A DNA stretch of 63,379 nt, from positions 1-63,379 of the forward strand of contig JAQTNF010000011.1 in assembly GCA_028713995.1 (NCBI GenBank), given 5' to 3'. Shown here in pieces: positions 5,900-13,370 of this stretch. Under the pieces are notes generated by a model. The model worked only from the letters and a program-made list of their open reading frames with translations. It made no database searches and was not told the DNA's origin. Source of the stretch: Deltaproteobacteria bacterium. GTDB taxonomy: Bacteria > Myxococcota_A > Polyangia > JAAYKL01. Each line of letters starts with the position of its first letter. The first letter of the stretch is position 1. A program made the translations under genes and the position numbers.

Positions 5900-6346
5900 A
5901 TGGGGAGCGCGATCGACAAGGCGGAGAAGCTCATCGAGCAGGTCATCGAGGAGCTCGGCATGAAGCCCAAGGAGAGCCGCATGCCGGGCGCCGGGGGCAC
6001 CACGTGGCGGGTCACGAGGGGCTCGGCCGCGGTGTTCGTGAGCCTGAACCCGGGCAGGGGCGGGGAGGCTCCGCGGCTGCGGATCGTGTCCCCGCTCGTG
6101 CGCCTGCCGGAGCACGTGCCCGCGGCCATGCTCACGCGCCTGCTCGAGCTCAACGGCACGGAGCTCCCGGGCCTCTCGTTCGGCATCATCCGCGACAAGG
6201 TGGTGCTCGTGGCCGAGCGCTCGGTGGTCGGCCTCGATCGGAACGAGGCGGCCGAGCTGCTGCAGGCCGTGGGCATCTACGGCGACAAGTACGACGACTT
6301 CCTCGTGCGGGAGTTCGGAGGCACGCGGGTGTGCGACCTCGGCTGA
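5900..6346 (+). CDS. YbjN-like protein at head of cytochrome block
   Basis: 148 residues, no signal peptide, hence cytoplasmic. The pattern (N-terminal helix, WRVTRGSAAVFVSL strand, then LLELNGTELPGLSFGI and a closing AAELLQAVGIYGDKYDDF helix) fits the YbjN/type-III-chaperone-like fold, in which an NG-containing hairpin is followed by a two-helix end. YbjN proteins are linked to stress and motility regulation or act as chaperones. A good -35 box (TTGACA, 5827-5832) lies upstream, but no convincing -10 is seen. The last 16 bases overlap the GTG start of the barrel gene, which argues for a shared transcript with the cytochrome genes. Confidence 0.6.
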   Translation: MGSAIDKAEKLIEQVIEELGMKPKESRMPGAGGTTWRVTRGSAAVFVSLNPGRGGEAPRLRIVSPLVRLPEHVPAAMLTRLLELNGTELPGLSFGIIRDKVVLVAERSVVGLDRNEAAELLQAVGIYGDKYDDFLVREFGGTRVCDLG

Positions 6347-7743
6347 GGATCACCCTTGCCCTCTTCCTCGCCGCGATCCTCGGGGTGGCGTCGGCGGCCG
6401 CTTTTGATCAACAGATCACGTCGACCCTGTCGGCGGAGGGCTACTCGGTGCCGCGCGCGGACGGCACGTGGATCGCCCGCCGTCGCATCGTCGAGGATCT
6501 GCGCCTCGGCGCCTTCAACCTCCTGCCCGGGTCGGCGGATCCGTACTACCGCGGCCCGCGGCTCTCGGTGGAGCTCGCCTTGCGCCTCGACACGGACTTC
6601 GCGGTGGGCGGCGACGAGAGCAACCCGGCCATGGACTCAGCGTACGTGCCCGGTCTCACGCCCGTGCACGTCGACGCCAATGTCGCCAACATGAGCGCCG
6701 AGGGCCTGTGGCAGGGCGCGCTCGACGTGCGGGCCGGCCGCCAGATCCGGATGGGCACGCTCGGCTTCTTCGCCTTCGACGGCGCCGAGACCGTGGTCCA
6801 TCTGCCCATCGGCGCCTCGTTCGCCACGTACATGGGTTACGAGGTTCGCGGCGGCGACCTGCTCGGATGGAGCGACCTGGAGCTCGACGGCACGGACAGT
6901 GGCGGGCGGCACGGCCTCACCGCGGATCGTTTTCCGGATCGGGAGGATCCGTCACTGCGCCTCGCCACGGGCGCCGAGCTCACGCTCAGTCCGGTGGCGT
7001 GGCTCGACGCGGCGGCCGCCGTTCAGGCCGTGGGGCTCAATGGCCCCATCGCGAGTCAGGAGGTGGGAGGCCGCATGAGCCTGGGCGGGGAGCCGATCCT
7101 GGCGGACGGCCGCGTGGTGTGGAACGCCATGCTCGAGGTGCTGGGCGAGGCGGATGCCGAGCTGGCCGTGACGCCGATCGACGCGCTCACGGTCGCGGCG
7201 GAATATCACCTCTTCCGCCCGACCTTCGAGGGCGACTCCATCTTCAACGTGTTCGACATCGCTCCCGAGAACGACGCGGGCGGGCGTGTGGAAGTGCGCC
7301 CGGTGAGCGCGGTGTCGCTCGCCGGCTGGGGCTTCGCGCGCATGGCCGACGGCAGCGCCGGCATCGACGGCCGGGCCGCGGACGCGCTTGTCTCGGGCGC
7401 GGGAGGCGGGCTGGGCGGCACGTACCGGACCCTCGCGCGCAGCCTGTCCCTGCGCCTTTCGGGCGTGTGGGAATGGGGCGAGAAGAGGCTCGGCGCCGAG
7501 GCGGGCGCGGGCCAGGCCTTCTGGAACCGCAGGCTGTGGCTCAACCTGCGGCTCTCCACCTGGCACCTCGACGACGCGTTCTCGAGCCGGCTCGCCGGCA
7601 ACCTGGCCGGGTACGTGCTCTCCGGGCGCTTCACGCTCACCGAGGGCGCGGTGGTCGTAGGCGAGTTCGAGCACTACGTGGGCGGCGGCATGGAACAGCG
7701 CTTCACGGCGCTGGCCATCCTGGAGATCGAGGTGTGGCGATGA
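6331..7743 (+). CDS. Outer-membrane beta-barrel partner of the 13-haem cytochrome
   Basis: 470 residues starting at GTG 6331, chosen because it gives an immediate signal peptide (MRPRLRITLALFLAAILG ... ASAAA, cleavage before FDQQ) and overlaps the upstream gene by 16 bases. The mature chain is made of amphipathic strands with aromatic girdles and Gly/Asp turns (for example ELALRLDTDFAVGGD, GEFEHYVGGGME), with no helical membrane spans, and ends in a strand. This is typical of a 16-22-strand porin. It overlaps the multihaem cytochrome gene by four bases (ATGA). By analogy with porin-cytochrome conduits (MtrAB, Geobacter Pcc) it may sheath or dock the cytochrome; sequence relation to MtrB is not evident by eye. 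Confidence 0.6.
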   Translation: MRPRLRITLALFLAAILGVASAAAFDQQITSTLSAEGYSVPRADGTWIARRRIVEDLRLGAFNLLPGSADPYYRGPRLSVELALRLDTDFAVGGDESNPAMDSAYVPGLTPVHVDANVANMSAEGLWQGALDVRAGRQIRMGTLGFFAFDGAETVVHLPIGASFATYMGYEVRGGDLLGWSDLELDGTDSGGRHGLTADRFPDREDPSLRLATGAELTLSPVAWLDAAAAVQAVGLNGPIASQEVGGRMSLGGEPILADGRVVWNAMLEVLGEADAELAVTPIDALTVAAEYHLFRPTFEGDSIFNVFDIAPENDAGGRVEVRPVSAVSLAGWGFARMADGSAGIDGRAADALVSGAGGGLGGTYRTLARSLSLRLSGVWEWGEKRLGAEAGAGQAFWNRRLWLNLRLSTWHLDDAFSSRLAGNLAGYVLSGRFTLTEGAVVVGEFEHYVGGGMEQRFTALAILEIEVWR

Positions 7744-8849
7744 AGCGCGCTCTTGCCCTTGCGGCCATCGCGGCCGCCCTCCTCGCCGCGGTCGCAGGCC
7801 TCGGCACCGAGTCGCGCGGCGTTTCCAGAGCGCTCCTGCCGCCGTCGCGGCCGTCCGTGGTCGACGTGCACGGCCGTCACAAGCCGGGCGAGCCGGCGTG
7901 CGTCGCCTGCCACAAGGACGCGCTTTCGTCTCGCTGGGCCTCGGACCGCCTGGCTCCGACCATGGAGGACTGCGCAGCGTGCCACCCGGAGGCAAAGGGC
8001 GTCACGCCTCTTACGCCCGTGACCGAGGCCTGCCGCTCGTGCCACGGGCCCGTGCCCGAGGGCCGGCGCATCGTCCCGGGCACGTATGCGCGTCCGAACG
8101 TGAGGTTCCCGCACAAGGCGCACGCCAAGGAGCCTTGCGCCACGTGCCATCCGGCCGCGGCCGCGGGCAGGGCCGCACCGCCCGGCGAGGACACGGCCGG
8201 TATGCGTACGTGCTACGCCTGCCACCTCGAGCGCAAGGCGCCCGTCGCGTGCCGCACGTGCCACCTGGTCGAGGCCGACGGCGTGATGGTCACGCGCATC
8301 GAGGGCGCGGCTCTCACGCCGCCCGCGTGGCTCAAGGGGCCGACCCACGGAGCCACCTGGGTCCAGTCTCACGCATCGGTCGCGGGCTCGGACTCGGGGT
8401 TCTGCGCCGCGTGCCACAGGAACAAGTTCTGCGGGGACTGCCACCTGGGCAGGGTGCGGCCGCGCGACGCGCACCCGGGCGACTGGATCCGCTCGCACGC
8501 CGTGTCGTCGCGACTCGACAGCCCCACGTGCCGGGGCTGCCACAGGAGCCAATCGTTCTGTCTCGACTGCCACCGCCGGCAGGGCGTGGCTCCGGACAGC
8601 CCAAAGGACAGCAGGTCGTTCCAAGGCCGCTACCACGGCGATCTTTCGCCGGAGCTCATCTGCCGCCGCGCGCGCACCGACATCGTCTCGTGCGCGTCCT
8701 GCCACTCCGAGAGCTCGTGCGTGTCGTGCCACGCCGCGGTGAACCCGCACCCGTCCGGATGGGAGCGGCGCTGCGCGCACCTCGCCAAGTCCAACCCACG
8801 GGCGTGCGCCAAGTGCCATTCGGACGACGCCTGGCGCCGCTGCCGCTGA
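7740..8849 (+). CDS. Thirteen-haem c-type cytochrome
   Basis: 369 residues with a signal peptide and thirteen CxxCH haem-binding motifs, from CVACH near residue 54 to CAKCH near residue 356. The spacing is irregular (about 15-45 residues), with many extra His residues able to be distal ligands, so bis-His c3/c7-type haems are likely. The frame starts at ATG 7740 inside the stop of the barrel gene (ATGA). A periplasmic or outer-membrane electron-transfer wire is expected. The haem density, about one per 28 residues, is that of extracellular-electron-transfer or nitrite/sulfur-type multihaem proteins. The catalytic role, if any, cannot be read. No gap or frameshift is seen. Confidence 0.85.
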   Translation: MKRALALAAIAAALLAAVAGLGTESRGVSRALLPPSRPSVVDVHGRHKPGEPACVACHKDALSSRWASDRLAPTMEDCAACHPEAKGVTPLTPVTEACRSCHGPVPEGRRIVPGTYARPNVRFPHKAHAKEPCATCHPAAAAGRAAPPGEDTAGMRTCYACHLERKAPVACRTCHLVEADGVMVTRIEGAALTPPAWLKGPTHGATWVQSHASVAGSDSGFCAACHRNKFCGDCHLGRVRPRDAHPGDWIRSHAVSSRLDSPTCRGCHRSQSFCLDCHRRQGVAPDSPKDSRSFQGRYHGDLSPELICRRARTDIVSCASCHSESSCVSCHAAVNPHPSGWERRCAHLAKSNPRACAKCHSDDAWRRCR

Positions 8850-8882
8850 CAAAGGTGGCGCCGACGCTCGGCGTCAAAACGC

Positions 8883-8911
8883 TTGCCCTCCGGTCGACCC
8901 GCGGCTATACA
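8883..8911 (+). promoter_or_regulatory. Candidate promoter before the 84-residue gene
   Basis: TTGCCC (8883-8888), a 17-base spacer and TATACA (8906-8911) resemble a sigma-70-type promoter. It lies between the 13-haem cytochrome and the next gene, so the second half of the redox block may also have its own transcript. Confidence 0.4.
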
Positions 8912-8980
8912 CATTTGTCCCGGAGGGCTTCGGTCGAAGCCGCGGCCGCGGGGACCCAAGGAACCGGAAGGAGGCTGAAG

Positions 8981-9235
8981 TTGGACGAGCTTGCCCAGTA
9001 TCTGATCGAAAAGATCATCGTCGATTTCGATGGAGAGGTGAACACGGAGACGGTGCGCGAGTTCCTGCGCAAGGATTCGAGCCCGACGGCGCGCGCCCTC
9101 CTGCAGAAGATCATCGAGGAGAAGGGGATCGACGACCTCATGCTCGCCCTGGCCGACTGCCTCACGGCCAACATCTCCGCCAACGTCGGCCCCGACGTGA
9201 TCCGCGAGCACCTCCTCACCTACTCGGAATCCTGA
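8981..9235 (+). CDS. Small soluble helical protein
   Basis: 84 residues starting at TTG 8981, which is preceded by a very strong ribosome site (GGAAGGAGG) at about 8 bases. There is no signal peptide. It is mostly helical with alternating acidic and hydrophobic residues, a DFDGEVNTETVREF segment and one Cys (ADCLTANI). It ends five bases before the mono-haem lipoprotein gene, so it belongs to the same transcript. The family is not recognised. Confidence 0.55.
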   Translation: MDELAQYLIEKIIVDFDGEVNTETVREFLRKDSSPTARALLQKIIEEKGIDDLMLALADCLTANISANVGPDVIREHLLTYSES

Positions 9236-9240
9236 GAGCC

Positions 9241-10071
9241 GTGTCCATGTACGCGCCGGCCGGTGGTCTCGCGAGACTGGCCGTCCTGTGCGCCGCGGCG
9301 GCGTCCCTCGCGGGCTGCGCGCCGCCTCCGCAGGAGTCGGACGCGTCGCCCGGGTACGGCCCCGAGCCGCTCGCGGCGACGCCTCGCGACGGCCAGGGCG
9401 GCGTCCCCGTGGACGCGGTCGTCCGCGTGTCGTTCAGCGATCACCTCGACGAGCGGACCCTTTACCAAGGCGGGCTCTCCCTCCATTCGGGCCCCGTCTC
9501 GCCCTGGATCATGGCCTACTACGATCCGGTGCGCCGACGGCTCGTGGTGTGGCCCAAGTCCACGCTGCGCGCGAACGCCACGTGGGTGCTCGACGTGGTC
9601 GAGGACGCGAACGTGCCCGTGGCCGGCCTCGACGGGCTGCCCGTGAAACCCGGCACGCTGACGAGCTTCCGCACCGGGACCGCGGCCGGGGACAATGCGC
9701 CGTACGTCGAGCGCACGTACGATGAGGACGTGCGACCCATCTTCGAGCGCCACTGCGCCGCCTGCCACAAGGGGCCGGGCACGGGCGTGGCACGCTTGCG
9801 GCTCGACACGATCGAGGGCGTCCGCGACACGACCATGGGCGTGCCGTCGGACGGTTGGCCGACGTGGCCGCGGATCGCGCCGTCGCGGCCGGGCGAGAGC
9901 TATCTCGTCTACAAGCTCCTCGGGTACGAGGGCATCGTCGGCGCTCCCATGCCTGCGTCGTGGGAACCGGACGTCCCGGCGACGAGGCTCACGCGGCGCG
10001 AGCTCGAGACCGTGTCCGACTGGATCGCCGGCGGCGCCACGTTTTTTGACCGGCTGCCGGGCGAGGAATAG
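9241..10071 (+). CDS. Lipoprotein with Big_5-like domain and mono-haem cytochrome c domain
   Basis: 276 residues. Signal peptide and lipobox SLAGC near residue 26. Residues 45-140 resemble a bacterial Ig-like Big_5 domain (ATPRDGQGGVPVDAVVRVSFS ... LDERTL). The C-terminal half starts DVRPIFERHCAACHKGP with one CxxCH at about residue 172, as in planctomycete-type cytochrome c (PSCyt1) domains, followed by PMPAS as a possible Met ligand and a closing helix SDWIAGGA. It is likely a periplasmic lipid-anchored electron carrier working with the multihaem cytochrome. The start is GTG 9241 or ATG 9247. Confidence 0.75.
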   Translation: MSMYAPAGGLARLAVLCAAAASLAGCAPPPQESDASPGYGPEPLAATPRDGQGGVPVDAVVRVSFSDHLDERTLYQGGLSLHSGPVSPWIMAYYDPVRRRLVVWPKSTLRANATWVLDVVEDANVPVAGLDGLPVKPGTLTSFRTGTAAGDNAPYVERTYDEDVRPIFERHCAACHKGPGTGVARLRLDTIEGVRDTTMGVPSDGWPTWPRIAPSRPGESYLVYKLLGYEGIVGAPMPASWEPDVPATRLTRRELETVSDWIAGGATFFDRLPGEE

Positions 10072-10080
10072 GATTCGAAC

Positions 10081-10998
10081 GTGACTCGACATGCGAAAAG
10101 GGCCCTCTCCTGCGGCATGGCCGCGACCGTGCTCGCGGGTGCGACGGTGTGGTTGGCGTGCTCGGCGGCGGGCGGTCAGCGCGTCGCGAGCGCCAAGGAG
10201 ATCGCGACCGTGCTCGACATCCGCGAGCTCACCCCATCCGAGACGAAGCGCCTCCTGCGGGTGCTCCACGGCGAGGTATCACCGTGCGGCGACGACGTGT
10301 CGCTGGCCCTCGCCCTCTTCAATCCCGAGGCGTGCCCGCTCGCGCCGCTCGCCGGCCGGTTCGTGGTCCAGATGGTCATGGAGGACTACAACGAGCAGGA
10401 GATCTCCGCCGCCTACGTGGCGCGTTACGCCGCGGCCAAGGGCCTCGAGATCCCGGTCGACGGCTCGCCGCGCACCGGTCCGGAGCACGCCGCGGCGACC
10501 GTGGTCGTGTTCTCCGACTTCGAATGCCCGTTCTGCGCCAAGGCCGCGGAAAAGCTGCACGAGATCCTCCGTCAGTACCCGAACGACGTGGCCCTGGTGT
10601 TCAAGCACGACCCGCTCGCCATCCACCCCACGGCCGAGCTCATGGCGCGCGCCGCGTACGCCGCGTTCCGCCAGGACAAGTTCTGGGAGATGCACGACAC
10701 GCTGTTCTCGGCATCGGGCTCGCCCGTCGATCGCGACAGGCTCGTCGTGATGGCCACGGGGCTCGGCCTCGACGTGAAGCGTTTCGAGGAGGATCTGGCC
10801 TCTTCGGGCGCCACCGCGGCCATCGAGGCCGATCGCAGCCTCGGGAAAAAGCTCGGCGTGGACGGCACGCCGACCATCTTCGTGAACGGCCGCAAGCTCG
10901 AGAACGGGGTGAAGGATCTGGAAGTGCGGCTGCGCGAGGAGTTCCTGAGGCGTGCGGCGGCCACCGCTGCGGGCGGCCAGCCCGGGCGACCCGACTAA
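10081..10998 (+). CDS. DsbA-family lipoprotein with CcmH-like N-terminal half
   Basis: 305 residues, GTG start. The signal sequence ends at a possible lipidation cysteine (VWLAC). Residues about 50-125 (ELTPSETKRLLRVL ... SPCGD ... EACPLA ... NEQEISAAYVARY) follow the helix-Cys-helix order of CcmH-type haem-lyase components. Residues 135-295 are a DsbA/thioredoxin fold with active site CPFC at 149-152, HDPLAIHP and the cis-Pro loop GTPTIFVN. It probably exchanges disulfides in the periplasm, perhaps keeping CxxCH cysteines reduced for haem attachment; this is inferred from the neighbourhood. Its stop shares CTAA with the convergent lipoprotein gene. Confidence 0.75.
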   Translation: MTRHAKRALSCGMAATVLAGATVWLACSAAGGQRVASAKEIATVLDIRELTPSETKRLLRVLHGEVSPCGDDVSLALALFNPEACPLAPLAGRFVVQMVMEDYNEQEISAAYVARYAAAKGLEIPVDGSPRTGPEHAAATVVVFSDFECPFCAKAAEKLHEILRQYPNDVALVFKHDPLAIHPTAELMARAAYAAFRQDKFWEMHDTLFSASGSPVDRDRLVVMATGLGLDVKRFEEDLASSGATAAIEADRSLGKKLGVDGTPTIFVNGRKLENGVKDLEVRLREEFLRRAAATAAGGQPGRPD

Positions 10999-11690
10999 CC
11001 CGCGTCCAATCCTGAATCCGGCCCGCCGTCCGATCCCGCATCGATGCCGGCGTCCAGCTCCGTGCCTGTTCCGGTCTCGGTTCCGGTCCCGGTGTCCGTG
11101 TCGATCGGCTCGGCCGGGAGGCAGTACTTCTTCAGAGGGAACGGGTCGTTGCTCGGGAAGAAGCCGGAAGAGGAGAACGTCATGCAGTGGTACCCCTGGT
11201 TCGTCCGGCAGTCGCCGTCGTCTTCGCAGTACCCGAGGCAGTAGAGCTTGCCCGGCGCCGCGAACGCGATGCACGCTGCGGCCCCGCCGCAGCCGGTCCC
11301 GAAGAACATGTCCGTGCACGCCTTCGTGCAGTACCCGCCCGGCCACGCGGCCGGCATGTCGAGGGCGTTCATGTCCTCGAGGCACTTGGCCTCGGCCACC
11401 GGGCCGCCGCAGTCGGTCTGTGCCGTGGCCGCGGTGCACGGCTCGCCGAAGTCCACGGTGCCGGCATCGGTCATGTCCGAGTCCGAATCCGCGTCGGAAT
11501 CCGAATCCGAATCGGAGTCCGAGTCCGCGTCGTTGTCAGTGTCCGAATCCGTGTCGGCATCCGCGTCGGCGTCTGTCCCCGCGTCGAAGCCGCCGCCGTC
11601 CTCGGTGCTCGTATCGGTCACGACGCATCCCGTTCCCACGAGCAAGACGAGAGCTGCAAACAAGAGCGAGCATCTGGCATGAACCACCAT
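10995..11690 (-). CDS. Surface lipoprotein with Asp/Ser repeat linker
   Basis: 231 residues with GGAGGAAA upstream, signal peptide and lipobox VGTGC at about residue 22. The linker (about residues 30-75) is an acidic DADAD/SDSDSD repeat. Then comes a domain with about twelve cysteines (FGEPC ... DCGG ... CTKAC ... GTGCGGAAAC ... YCLGYCEDDGDC), an arrangement common in myxobacterial extracellular proteins. A second TGTGTETG and DAGIDAG tail follows. It is probably an exposed outer-membrane lipoprotein of unknown binding partner. Confidence 0.65.
   Translation of the reverse strand: MVVHARCSLLFAALVLLVGTGCVVTDTSTEDGGGFDAGTDADADADTDSDTDNDADSDSDSDSDSDADSDSDMTDAGTVDFGEPCTAATAQTDCGGPVAEAKCLEDMNALDMPAAWPGGYCTKACTDMFFGTGCGGAAACIAFAAPGKLYCLGYCEDDGDCRTNQGYHCMTFSSSGFFPSNDPFPLKKYCLPAEPIDTDTGTGTETGTGTELDAGIDAGSDGGPDSGLDAG
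11477..11575. repeat. Low-complexity GA[C/T]-TC[C/G] hexanucleotide-like tract
   Basis: On the minus strand this encodes alternating Asp-Ser/Asp-Ala pairs. The repeated 6-base units make it prone to slippage in replication or assembly. It is a protein linker, not a mobile or CRISPR repeat. Confidence 0.6.
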
Positions 11691-11924: not shown

Positions 11925-13370
11925 ATGCTCGAAAACCTGCTCATCGGCGCATACCTGACCATCCTGGGGCTCCTCGCGGTCTACGGCTTCCACCGCAGCC
12001 ACCTCGTCTACCTTTTTATGAAGACGCGCGAAAACAAACCGAAGCCCAAGGGCGAGTTCAAGGAGTGGCCGTTCGTCACGATCCAGCTCCCCATGTTCAA
12101 TGAGCGGTACGTGGCCGAGCGCCTCATCGAGGCCGTGGCCAAGATCGACTACCCGCACGAAAAATTCGAGATCCAGGTCCTCGACGACTCCACCGACGAC
12201 ACCACCGAGATCGCGCGGGCCGCGGTCGAGGCGGTCATGCACAGGGGTATCCAGGCCTCGCTCGTCCACCGCAGCGACCGGACGGGTTACAAGGCCGGCG
12301 CTCTCGAGAATGGCCTGCGCACGGCCAAGGGCGAGTTCGTGGCCGTGTTCGACGCGGACTTCATCCCGCCCTCGGATATCCTGCGCGACACGATCAACTT
12401 CTTCACCGACGAATCGGTCGGCATGGTGCAGGTGCGCTGGGGCCACATCAACCGGCGCTACTCCATGCTCACCCGCATCGAGTCGCTCATGCTCGACGGC
12501 CACTTCGTCATCGAGCACGGGGCGCGCCAGCGGTCCGGGCGCTTCTTCAACTTCAACGGCACAGCCGGCATGTGGCGCCGCAAGGCCATCAGTGACGCGG
12601 GCGGATGGGAGCACGACACCCTCACCGAGGACATGGACCTCTCGTACCGGGCGCAGCTCAAGGGCTGGAAGTTCGTCTACCTGCCCGACGTGGTGGCGCC
12701 GGCCGAGGTCCCGGTCGAGATGGCGAGCTTCAAGTCGCAGCAGCACAGGTGGGCGAAAGGCTCGATCCAGGTGGCGCGCAAGATGCTGCCCGTGGTCCTG
12801 CGCTCGAACGCGCCCTTCAAGGTCAAGGTCGAGGCCATCTTCCACCTCACCAACAACCTGGCATACGTGCTCATGATCTTCCTCGCTCTCCTGCTCCTGC
12901 CCAACCTGCTCGTGCGTACGGAGCACGGGTGGCGCGAGGTGATCCTCATCGACCTGCCGCTCTTCTTCGGGACCACGGTGTCGATCGGCACGTTCTACGT
13001 GGTGGCGCACAGGCAGCTTTACGGCGGGACGTGGAAGGCCATCGCCAAGGTGCCGCTGCTCATGGCGCTGGGCATCGGTCTCTCCATCAACAACGCCAAG
13101 GCCGTGCTCGAAGGCCTGTTCGGCTACCAGAGCGAGTTCGTGCGCACGGCCAAGCACGGGATCGAGACCCGCAGCTGTGCCTGGCGGCAGATGACCTACC
13201 GGGCCAAGAAGGGGCTCGTGCCGCTCGTCGAGCTCCTCTTCGCGAGCTATTTCGTGGTCACGATTTACGCGGCCGTGATCGGCAAGCACTACGTGTCCCT
13301 GCCTTTCCTGGCCCTCTTCCTCCTGGGTTACCTCTACGTGGGGGCCCTGTCCATCTACCAGCGGCGCTAA
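11925..13370 (+). CDS. Processive family 2 glycosyltransferase (CESA/CslA-like)
   Basis: 481 residues. One N-terminal membrane segment, a cytoplasmic GT-A domain (about 50-290) and a C-terminal cluster of four to five membrane spans. Catalytic motifs are in order: LDDSTDDT near 85, DADF near 143, TEDMDLSYR near 233 and the processivity motif QQHRWAKG near 271 (Q-x-x-R-W). This is the cellulose/mannan synthase-like group, which makes a beta-linked polysaccharide from NDP-sugar and passes it through the membrane. No BcsB or PilZ domain is adjacent, so CslA-like (glucomannan) or a unique exopolysaccharide is as likely as cellulose. It starts the glycan region. Confidence 0.85.
   Translation: MLENLLIGAYLTILGLLAVYGFHRSHLVYLFMKTRENKPKPKGEFKEWPFVTIQLPMFNERYVAERLIEAVAKIDYPHEKFEIQVLDDSTDDTTEIARAAVEAVMHRGIQASLVHRSDRTGYKAGALENGLRTAKGEFVAVFDADFIPPSDILRDTINFFTDESVGMVQVRWGHINRRYSMLTRIESLMLDGHFVIEHGARQRSGRFFNFNGTAGMWRRKAISDAGGWEHDTLTEDMDLSYRAQLKGWKFVYLPDVVAPAEVPVEMASFKSQQHRWAKGSIQVARKMLPVVLRSNAPFKVKVEAIFHLTNNLAYVLMIFLALLLLPNLLVRTEHGWREVILIDLPLFFGTTVSIGTFYVVAHRQLYGGTWKAIAKVPLLMALGIGLSINNAKAVLEGLFGYQSEFVRTAKHGIETRSCAWRQMTYRAKKGLVPLVELLFASYFVVTIYAAVIGKHYVSLPFLALFLLGYLYVGALSIYQRR

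Follow-up and report, generated by a model that had tools for sequence, protein, structure and literature searches.

Six plus-strand genes at positions 5900-10998 of contig JAQTNF010000011.1, analysed over its 63,379 nucleotides (the window) and assigned to a Deltaproteobacteria bacterium of the class Polyangia, encode in this order a YbjN-type protein, an outer-membrane beta-barrel, a 13-haem c-type cytochrome, a protein of 84 amino acids (84 aa), a mono-haem lipoprotein and a DsbA-like protein. We read this block as an outer-membrane porin-cytochrome electron conduit with the mono-haem lipoprotein as its partner and give this reading a probability of about 0.68. We favour it because the barrel model is free of a plug, barrel and cytochrome genes are paired in each of 103 loci, the N-terminus of the cytochrome is c7-like, seven of its haems are fixed, and the mono-haem gene co-occurs with the conduit. 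The conduit is real and phylum-wide; judging from the sequences, it is probably also functional.

The AlphaFold2 model of the barrel, based on 50 homologues, comprises a signal helix and 22 strands without a plug (predicted local distance difference test, pLDDT, 88.0; predicted template modelling score, pTM, 0.78). That is, the protein is confidently predicted to fold as the barrel that had been proposed from the letters alone. Its structural neighbours in the PDB are large pores, i.e., FimD/PapC ushers and OprD/Occ porins (Z 14-18); neither MtrB nor another known electron-conduit barrel is among the listed structural matches, and no Pfam family is found for the barrel. Among alternate strand residues of the model, charged ones make up 34% on the face assigned to the lumen and 8% on the lipid face. 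In all non-redundant Myxococcota loci that carry both genes (103/103), the barrel gene immediately precedes the cytochrome gene in the same orientation. These loci were found via the cytochrome or the barrel, so they are not a blind sample; they cover many families, and beyond the class of the window the pair is found in eight or more families. No natural fusion of barrel and cytochrome occurs among the loci examined. A porin-like barrel gene thus lies next to the gene of an exported multi-haem c-type cytochrome, which is the broad definition of a porin-cytochrome (Pcc) system, and both the barrel model and the adjacency support the conduit reading of the original prediction.

Homologues of the barrel are present in each of the 13 further genomes of the family to which the window belongs (f1; 37-56% identity) and in 67 of the 96 genomes sampled from the class, while the barrel profile matches 100/284 genomes sampled across the phylum. 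Named relatives with the conduit include Sorangium cellulosum, Polyangium fumosum and Minicystis rosea, to which many metagenome assemblies are added. The open-access full-text literature that we searched yielded no account of this conduit for Polyangia, Sorangium included.

The cytochrome shows exactly 13 CXXCH motifs and matches the Pfam family Cytochrome_C7 (E-value 1.1e-13). In the alignment of its homologues, the haem cysteines and ten histidines outside of the CXXCH motifs (nine invariant, one nearly invariant) are fully or almost fully conserved; these histidines are candidates for distal ligands and would be consistent with a mostly bis-histidine wire. Invariant are also Met155 and two non-haem cysteines (345, 368). 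The haem number varies in threes: most lineages have 13 haems, several members of f1 have 10 and several f32 genomes 7. Missing from the shorter forms are the N-terminal haems (the first three and the first six, respectively), and the last seven keep a spacing of 9, 33-34, 10, 44-50, 9 and 29 in the sequences inspected, always beside the barrel. The removable N-terminal part matches three-haem c7 cytochromes. Its profile finds the solved c7-repeat cytochrome 3ov0 (3.6e-22), which we take to be the dodecahaem GSU1996, and PpcA-type c7 cytochromes (about 1e-6). These resemble the N-terminal part and leave the conserved seven-haem C-terminal part uncovered; they are soluble periplasmic proteins without a barrel. 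A weak profile match (1.9e-5) relates the haem region to a chain of 6r2q, presumably MtrA. We read the cytochrome as a fixed seven-haem membrane part with detachable c7-like periplasmic extensions.

The mono-haem lipoprotein has a canonical lipobox (LAGC), a Big_5 immunoglobulin-like (Ig-like) N-terminus, a CAACH haem motif and a candidate distal Met in GAPMP; its match to Pfam Cytochrom_C (0.004) is below the cut-off. Relatives share the lipobox region and the Ig-like domain; they also carry either CXXCH or CX4CH, and a Met-Pro close to the C-terminus is conserved. The gene stands beside the 84-aa gene in 42/49 genomes with the conduit compared to 2/18 without it (Fisher p about 3e-8, uncorrected for kinship). 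This co-occurrence also holds in genomes where the two loci are unlinked, and within families f4 and f20 the gene is present in conduit genomes and absent from conduit-free ones. In f52 and f57, genes of cytochrome c type with a match to the mono-haem profile sit just upstream of the barrel instead. Since it tracks the conduit by presence and absence, the mono-haem lipoprotein is the most promising candidate redox partner at the outer membrane, and among the three genes downstream of the cytochrome it is the only one specific to the conduit.

In the mechanism that we propose, the seven-haem C-terminal part of the cytochrome would be seated within the barrel, with docking and orientation as we infer them. 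Its N-terminal part, i.e., two detachable three-haem units, would extend into the periplasm and swap electrons with carriers there. At the outer membrane, the mono-haem Ig-like lipoprotein would serve the conduit as redox partner, putatively on the side where it could replace the multi-haem surface cytochrome of Mtr and Pcc systems. The YbjN-type, 84-aa and DsbA-like proteins are then presumably assembly, regulatory or housekeeping neighbours rather than electron carriers of the conduit.

By its architecture as deduced from sequence, the block belongs to the Pcc kind and is neither of the MtrCAB nor of the Geobacter type. The closest known architecture is found within the same phylum: the two-gene Pcc clusters of Anaeromyxobacter encode periplasmic cytochromes of 338-344 aa with 12-14 haems and lack an outer-membrane cytochrome (Group IV; Shi et al. 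2014, PMC4245776). Here, too, a porin-like protein is paired with a cytochrome of similar size (369 aa, 13 haems; ~340 aa and 12-14 haems in Group IV), and no outer-membrane multi-haem cytochrome is encoded. In contrast, the mono-haem Ig-like partner, the YbjN-type head gene and the series of 7, 10 and 13 haems are features of the present loci that do not appear in those parts of PMC4245776 on which this comparison draws.

The Pcc systems of Geobacter (OmbB-OmaB-OmcB type) likewise encode a porin and a periplasmic multi-haem cytochrome side by side, but combine an 8-haem periplasmic with a 12-haem surface cytochrome where we observe 13 haems and a single one. Neither the block nor the neighbour clusters that recur among the 103 loci include an outer-surface multi-haem cytochrome. 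With MtrCAB of Shewanella, the proposed common principle is a barrel with a rod-like multi-haem cytochrome. Identity with MtrCAB is rejected based on strand number (22 vs. 26), haem number (13 vs. 10), the MtrA-family model and the lack of an MtrC. The MtrA/DmsE-family model for decahaem cytochromes (TIGR03508) scores 20.4 bits, well short of the cut-off of 192.2. The Fe(II)-oxidation conduits PioAB and MtoAB, whose cytochromes are decahaem, also combine a porin with a multi-haem cytochrome and do without a multi-haem surface cytochrome.

The block as a whole consists of two conserved modules that are joined, namely (YbjN)-barrel-cytochrome (module 1) and 84-aa-mono-haem-DsbA-like (module 2). 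Coordinates are listed in Table 1. All six reading frames are confirmed as open, and the details given in the original prediction hold in the sequence, i.e., the 13 haem motifs, the 16 bases by which the 3' end of the YbjN-type gene overlaps the barrel gene, the 4-base overlap of barrel and cytochrome, and the 5 bases between the 84-aa and mono-haem genes. Gaps of 131 and 9 bases separate the cytochrome from the 84-aa gene and the mono-haem from the DsbA-like gene, respectively. The exact six-gene order recurs in genome G002 (loci L066/L108), is kept with additional genes in G001, and is partly found in G010, G012 and G009, where contigs end early. Because of this recurrence, the arrangement is more than chance, and within Myxococcota it is not limited to the window's genome.

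Table 1. Genes of the conduit block and a downstream neighbour (positions within the window).
Feature	Positions	Strand	Remarks
YbjN/TY-Chap1-type cytoplasmic protein	5900-6346	+	148 aa; heads module 1
Outer-membrane beta-barrel	6331-7743	+	GTG start; 470 aa including signal peptide; 22 predicted strands; plug-less
13-haem c-type cytochrome	7740-8849	+	369 aa including signal peptide; c7-like N-terminal and conserved seven-haem C-terminal part
84-aa acidic protein	8981-9235	+	TTG start; without signal peptide; opens module 2
Mono-haem lipoprotein	9241-10071	+	GTG start, ATG at 9247 also possible; lipobox, Big_5 Ig-like and c-type haem domain
DsbA/Thioredoxin_4-type envelope protein	10081-10998	+	GTG start or ATG at 10117; CPFC motif
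Family 2 glycosyltransferase	11925-13370	+	neighbour outside the conduit; comes after module 2 in f1

Both modules are joined, i.e., barrel, cytochrome, 84-aa and mono-haem genes are neighbours, in the window, its nearest relatives and most Polyangiales-type loci. In the genomes G004, G005, G006 and G007, the three genes of module 2 stand apart from barrel and cytochrome, and in G004, G007 and G006 they are followed by a homologue of the glycosyltransferase. Mapped onto the cytochrome tree, the linked state shows 9 changes compared to a mean of 27.6 for shuffled labels; the true number is lower than 9, since L084, L085 and L171 are scored as unlinked merely from contig ends.

The 84-aa protein is the most conserved of the six members (gapless alignment of 84 columns, 74% mean column identity), and no Pfam, PDB or PHROG family is found for it above threshold. 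Its gene is present in 76/96 genomes of the class, including the conduit-free families f8 and f14 and parts of f4, and is absent from all f7 genomes that carry the conduit. It persists without the conduit and is therefore not conduit-specific. Family f14 retains the 84-aa and DsbA-like genes with neither mono-haem gene nor conduit. The DsbA-like protein matches Pfam DSBA (3.6e-22) and is of the Thioredoxin_4 type, with an NCBIfam match (Rcas_1661-type) below the cut-off. Clear relatives (48-62% identity) are found in all 13 other f1 genomes, usually adjoining the 84-aa and mono-haem genes, and the nearest ones in f5 and f14. For this protein, which had been labelled a DsbA/CcmH-like lipoprotein, we drop the CcmH part, since only DSBA/thioredoxin-type families match and no CcmH domain is detected; its lipobox (WLAC) is weak. 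The presence/absence tests led us to reject the idea of a single six-gene system. What remains of the 'compact redox block' that had been proposed is the mono-haem lipoprotein, which tracks the conduit, while the 84-aa and DsbA-like genes exist without it.

At the head of the block, the YbjN-type protein matches the Pfam families TY-Chap1 (8.8e-11; 42 bits, cut-off 27) and YbjN (1.4e-5; 25.7 bits, cut-off 22), both above cut-off. Its gene is directly upstream of the barrel in 17/103 non-redundant loci. In the Sorangium and Minicystis type loci L149, L150 and L138, the barrel is preceded by a conserved set of genes, lying mostly on the same strand, for a HEAT-repeat protein, an exported protein family present as two tandem copies, and a cluster whose representative is an FtsY-type GTPase. 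At the other end of the block, a minus-strand lipoprotein gene (10995-11690) with an Asp-Ser-Asp-Ala/Thr repeat overlaps the stop of the DsbA-like gene by 4 bases.

Several observations weigh against the conduit. The barrel profile has no sequence match among solved structures of the PDB at E-values up to 1, even with 6r2q in the library, and the model has 22 strands where MtrB has 26. Conservation is not significantly higher at positions that face the lumen than at those facing the lipid (p 0.10), and charge complementarity is a tendency only (barrel negative in 58/77, cytochrome positive in 68/77). For the cytochrome model, no Foldseek match is found, and the weak alignments obtained are to ActA of alternative complex III (ACIII; Z 3.8). 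Seven conduit genomes (f9, f12, f21) have no mono-haem gene beside the 84-aa gene. Finally, Sorangium, Polyangium and similar cultured hosts are, to our knowledge, aerobes for which extracellular electron transfer has not been reported.

Alternatively, the barrel could be a substrate or metal porin, with the cytochrome as a periplasmic electron store or as reductase of the imported compounds, i.e., co-expression without a transmembrane wire. The best structural neighbours of the barrel are indeed general pores (OprD-type porins and ushers), and its contact with the cytochrome is a matter of inferred docking. Yet the pairing is invariant across the phylum, the three-haem steps with a constant seven-haem part by the barrel fit a wire with a fixed membrane part, and a plug-less 22-strand pore by itself would leak. 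We regard this explanation as improbable. Compatible with the conduit, though unlikely, is a single co-regulated envelope redox/assembly operon in which the DsbA-like, YbjN-type and 84-aa proteins fold and mount the conduit. In its favour, the barrel-cytochrome pair is followed by the 84-aa and mono-haem genes in f1, in f5 and in the majority of Polyangiales-type loci, and the two invariant non-haem cysteines of the cytochrome could form a disulfide. However, the modules are unlinked in most f1 genera, 131 bases lie between them in the window, and the presence of the 84-aa and DsbA-like genes in conduit-free genomes, together with the absence of the former from conduit-bearing f7 genomes, does not follow the conduit.

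The same conduit may also run inward, with Fe(II), a mineral or a partner cell as the electron source, as in Pio and Mto. This is in line with a block that encodes no multi-haem surface cytochrome and with the occurrence of the conduit in Sorangium, Polyangium and Minicystis, which have less need of an external acceptor; furthermore, mtr-type clusters without mtrC often stem from Fe(II) oxidisers, according to Shi et al. 2014 (PMC4245776). For the window's organism, import coupled to O2 is made less likely by its genome (97% complete), which gives no match to subunit I of haem-copper oxidases (COX1), while the same search is positive in 8/14 control genomes. We consider inward flow unlikely. 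Electron export under low oxygen would be the likelier direction in this organism, given the missing haem-copper oxidase, a NapC/NirT-family protein and a second conduit. The latter is a porin-cytochrome locus of different type in the same genome (G000:C1:87975-91683, i.e., L086:9976-13684), where overlapping genes encode an 8-haem cytochrome, a 514-aa barrel and a 14-haem cytochrome; it has relatives in G001 and weaker ones in f11, f14, f29, f30 and f34. The one NapC/NirT-family protein of the genome is encoded next to genes of 11-haem and 10-haem proteins. A weak cytochrome bd-family match lies beside Rieske and cytochrome b genes (L249).

At the NapC/NirT locus (L250, G000:C69, 2650-8884), a gene for a 10-haem protein (748 aa) with a long Asp/Thr/Ser repeat is divergent from that of the 11-haem protein (700 aa), and the NapC/NirT-type membrane protein has 5 haems. 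The repeat of the 10-haem protein is similar to that of the lipoprotein at 10995-11690 of the window. It is possible that L250 provides the inner-membrane entry and a surface cytochrome of the same electron network.

Taken further, the porin-cytochrome reading leads to a three-part conduit across Myxococcota, composed of a 22-strand barrel, a modular wire of 7, 10 or 13 haems in which seven form the constant membrane part, and the mono-haem Ig-like lipoprotein as surface outlet or inlet, that would be active even in predatory soil myxobacteria thought to be purely aerobic. We put this forward tentatively, with the odds slightly against it. If true, electron transfer across the outer membrane would be an old and widely kept trait of Myxococcota, among them the culturable genera Sorangium, Polyangium and Minicystis, and deletions in laboratory strains could put it to the test. 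With a barrel that stays the same while the haem number steps through 7, 10 and 13, the loci would offer a natural experiment on which segment of the wire spans the membrane. An outer contact made by a mono-haem lipoprotein, and not by a multi-haem surface cytochrome, would represent a different design.

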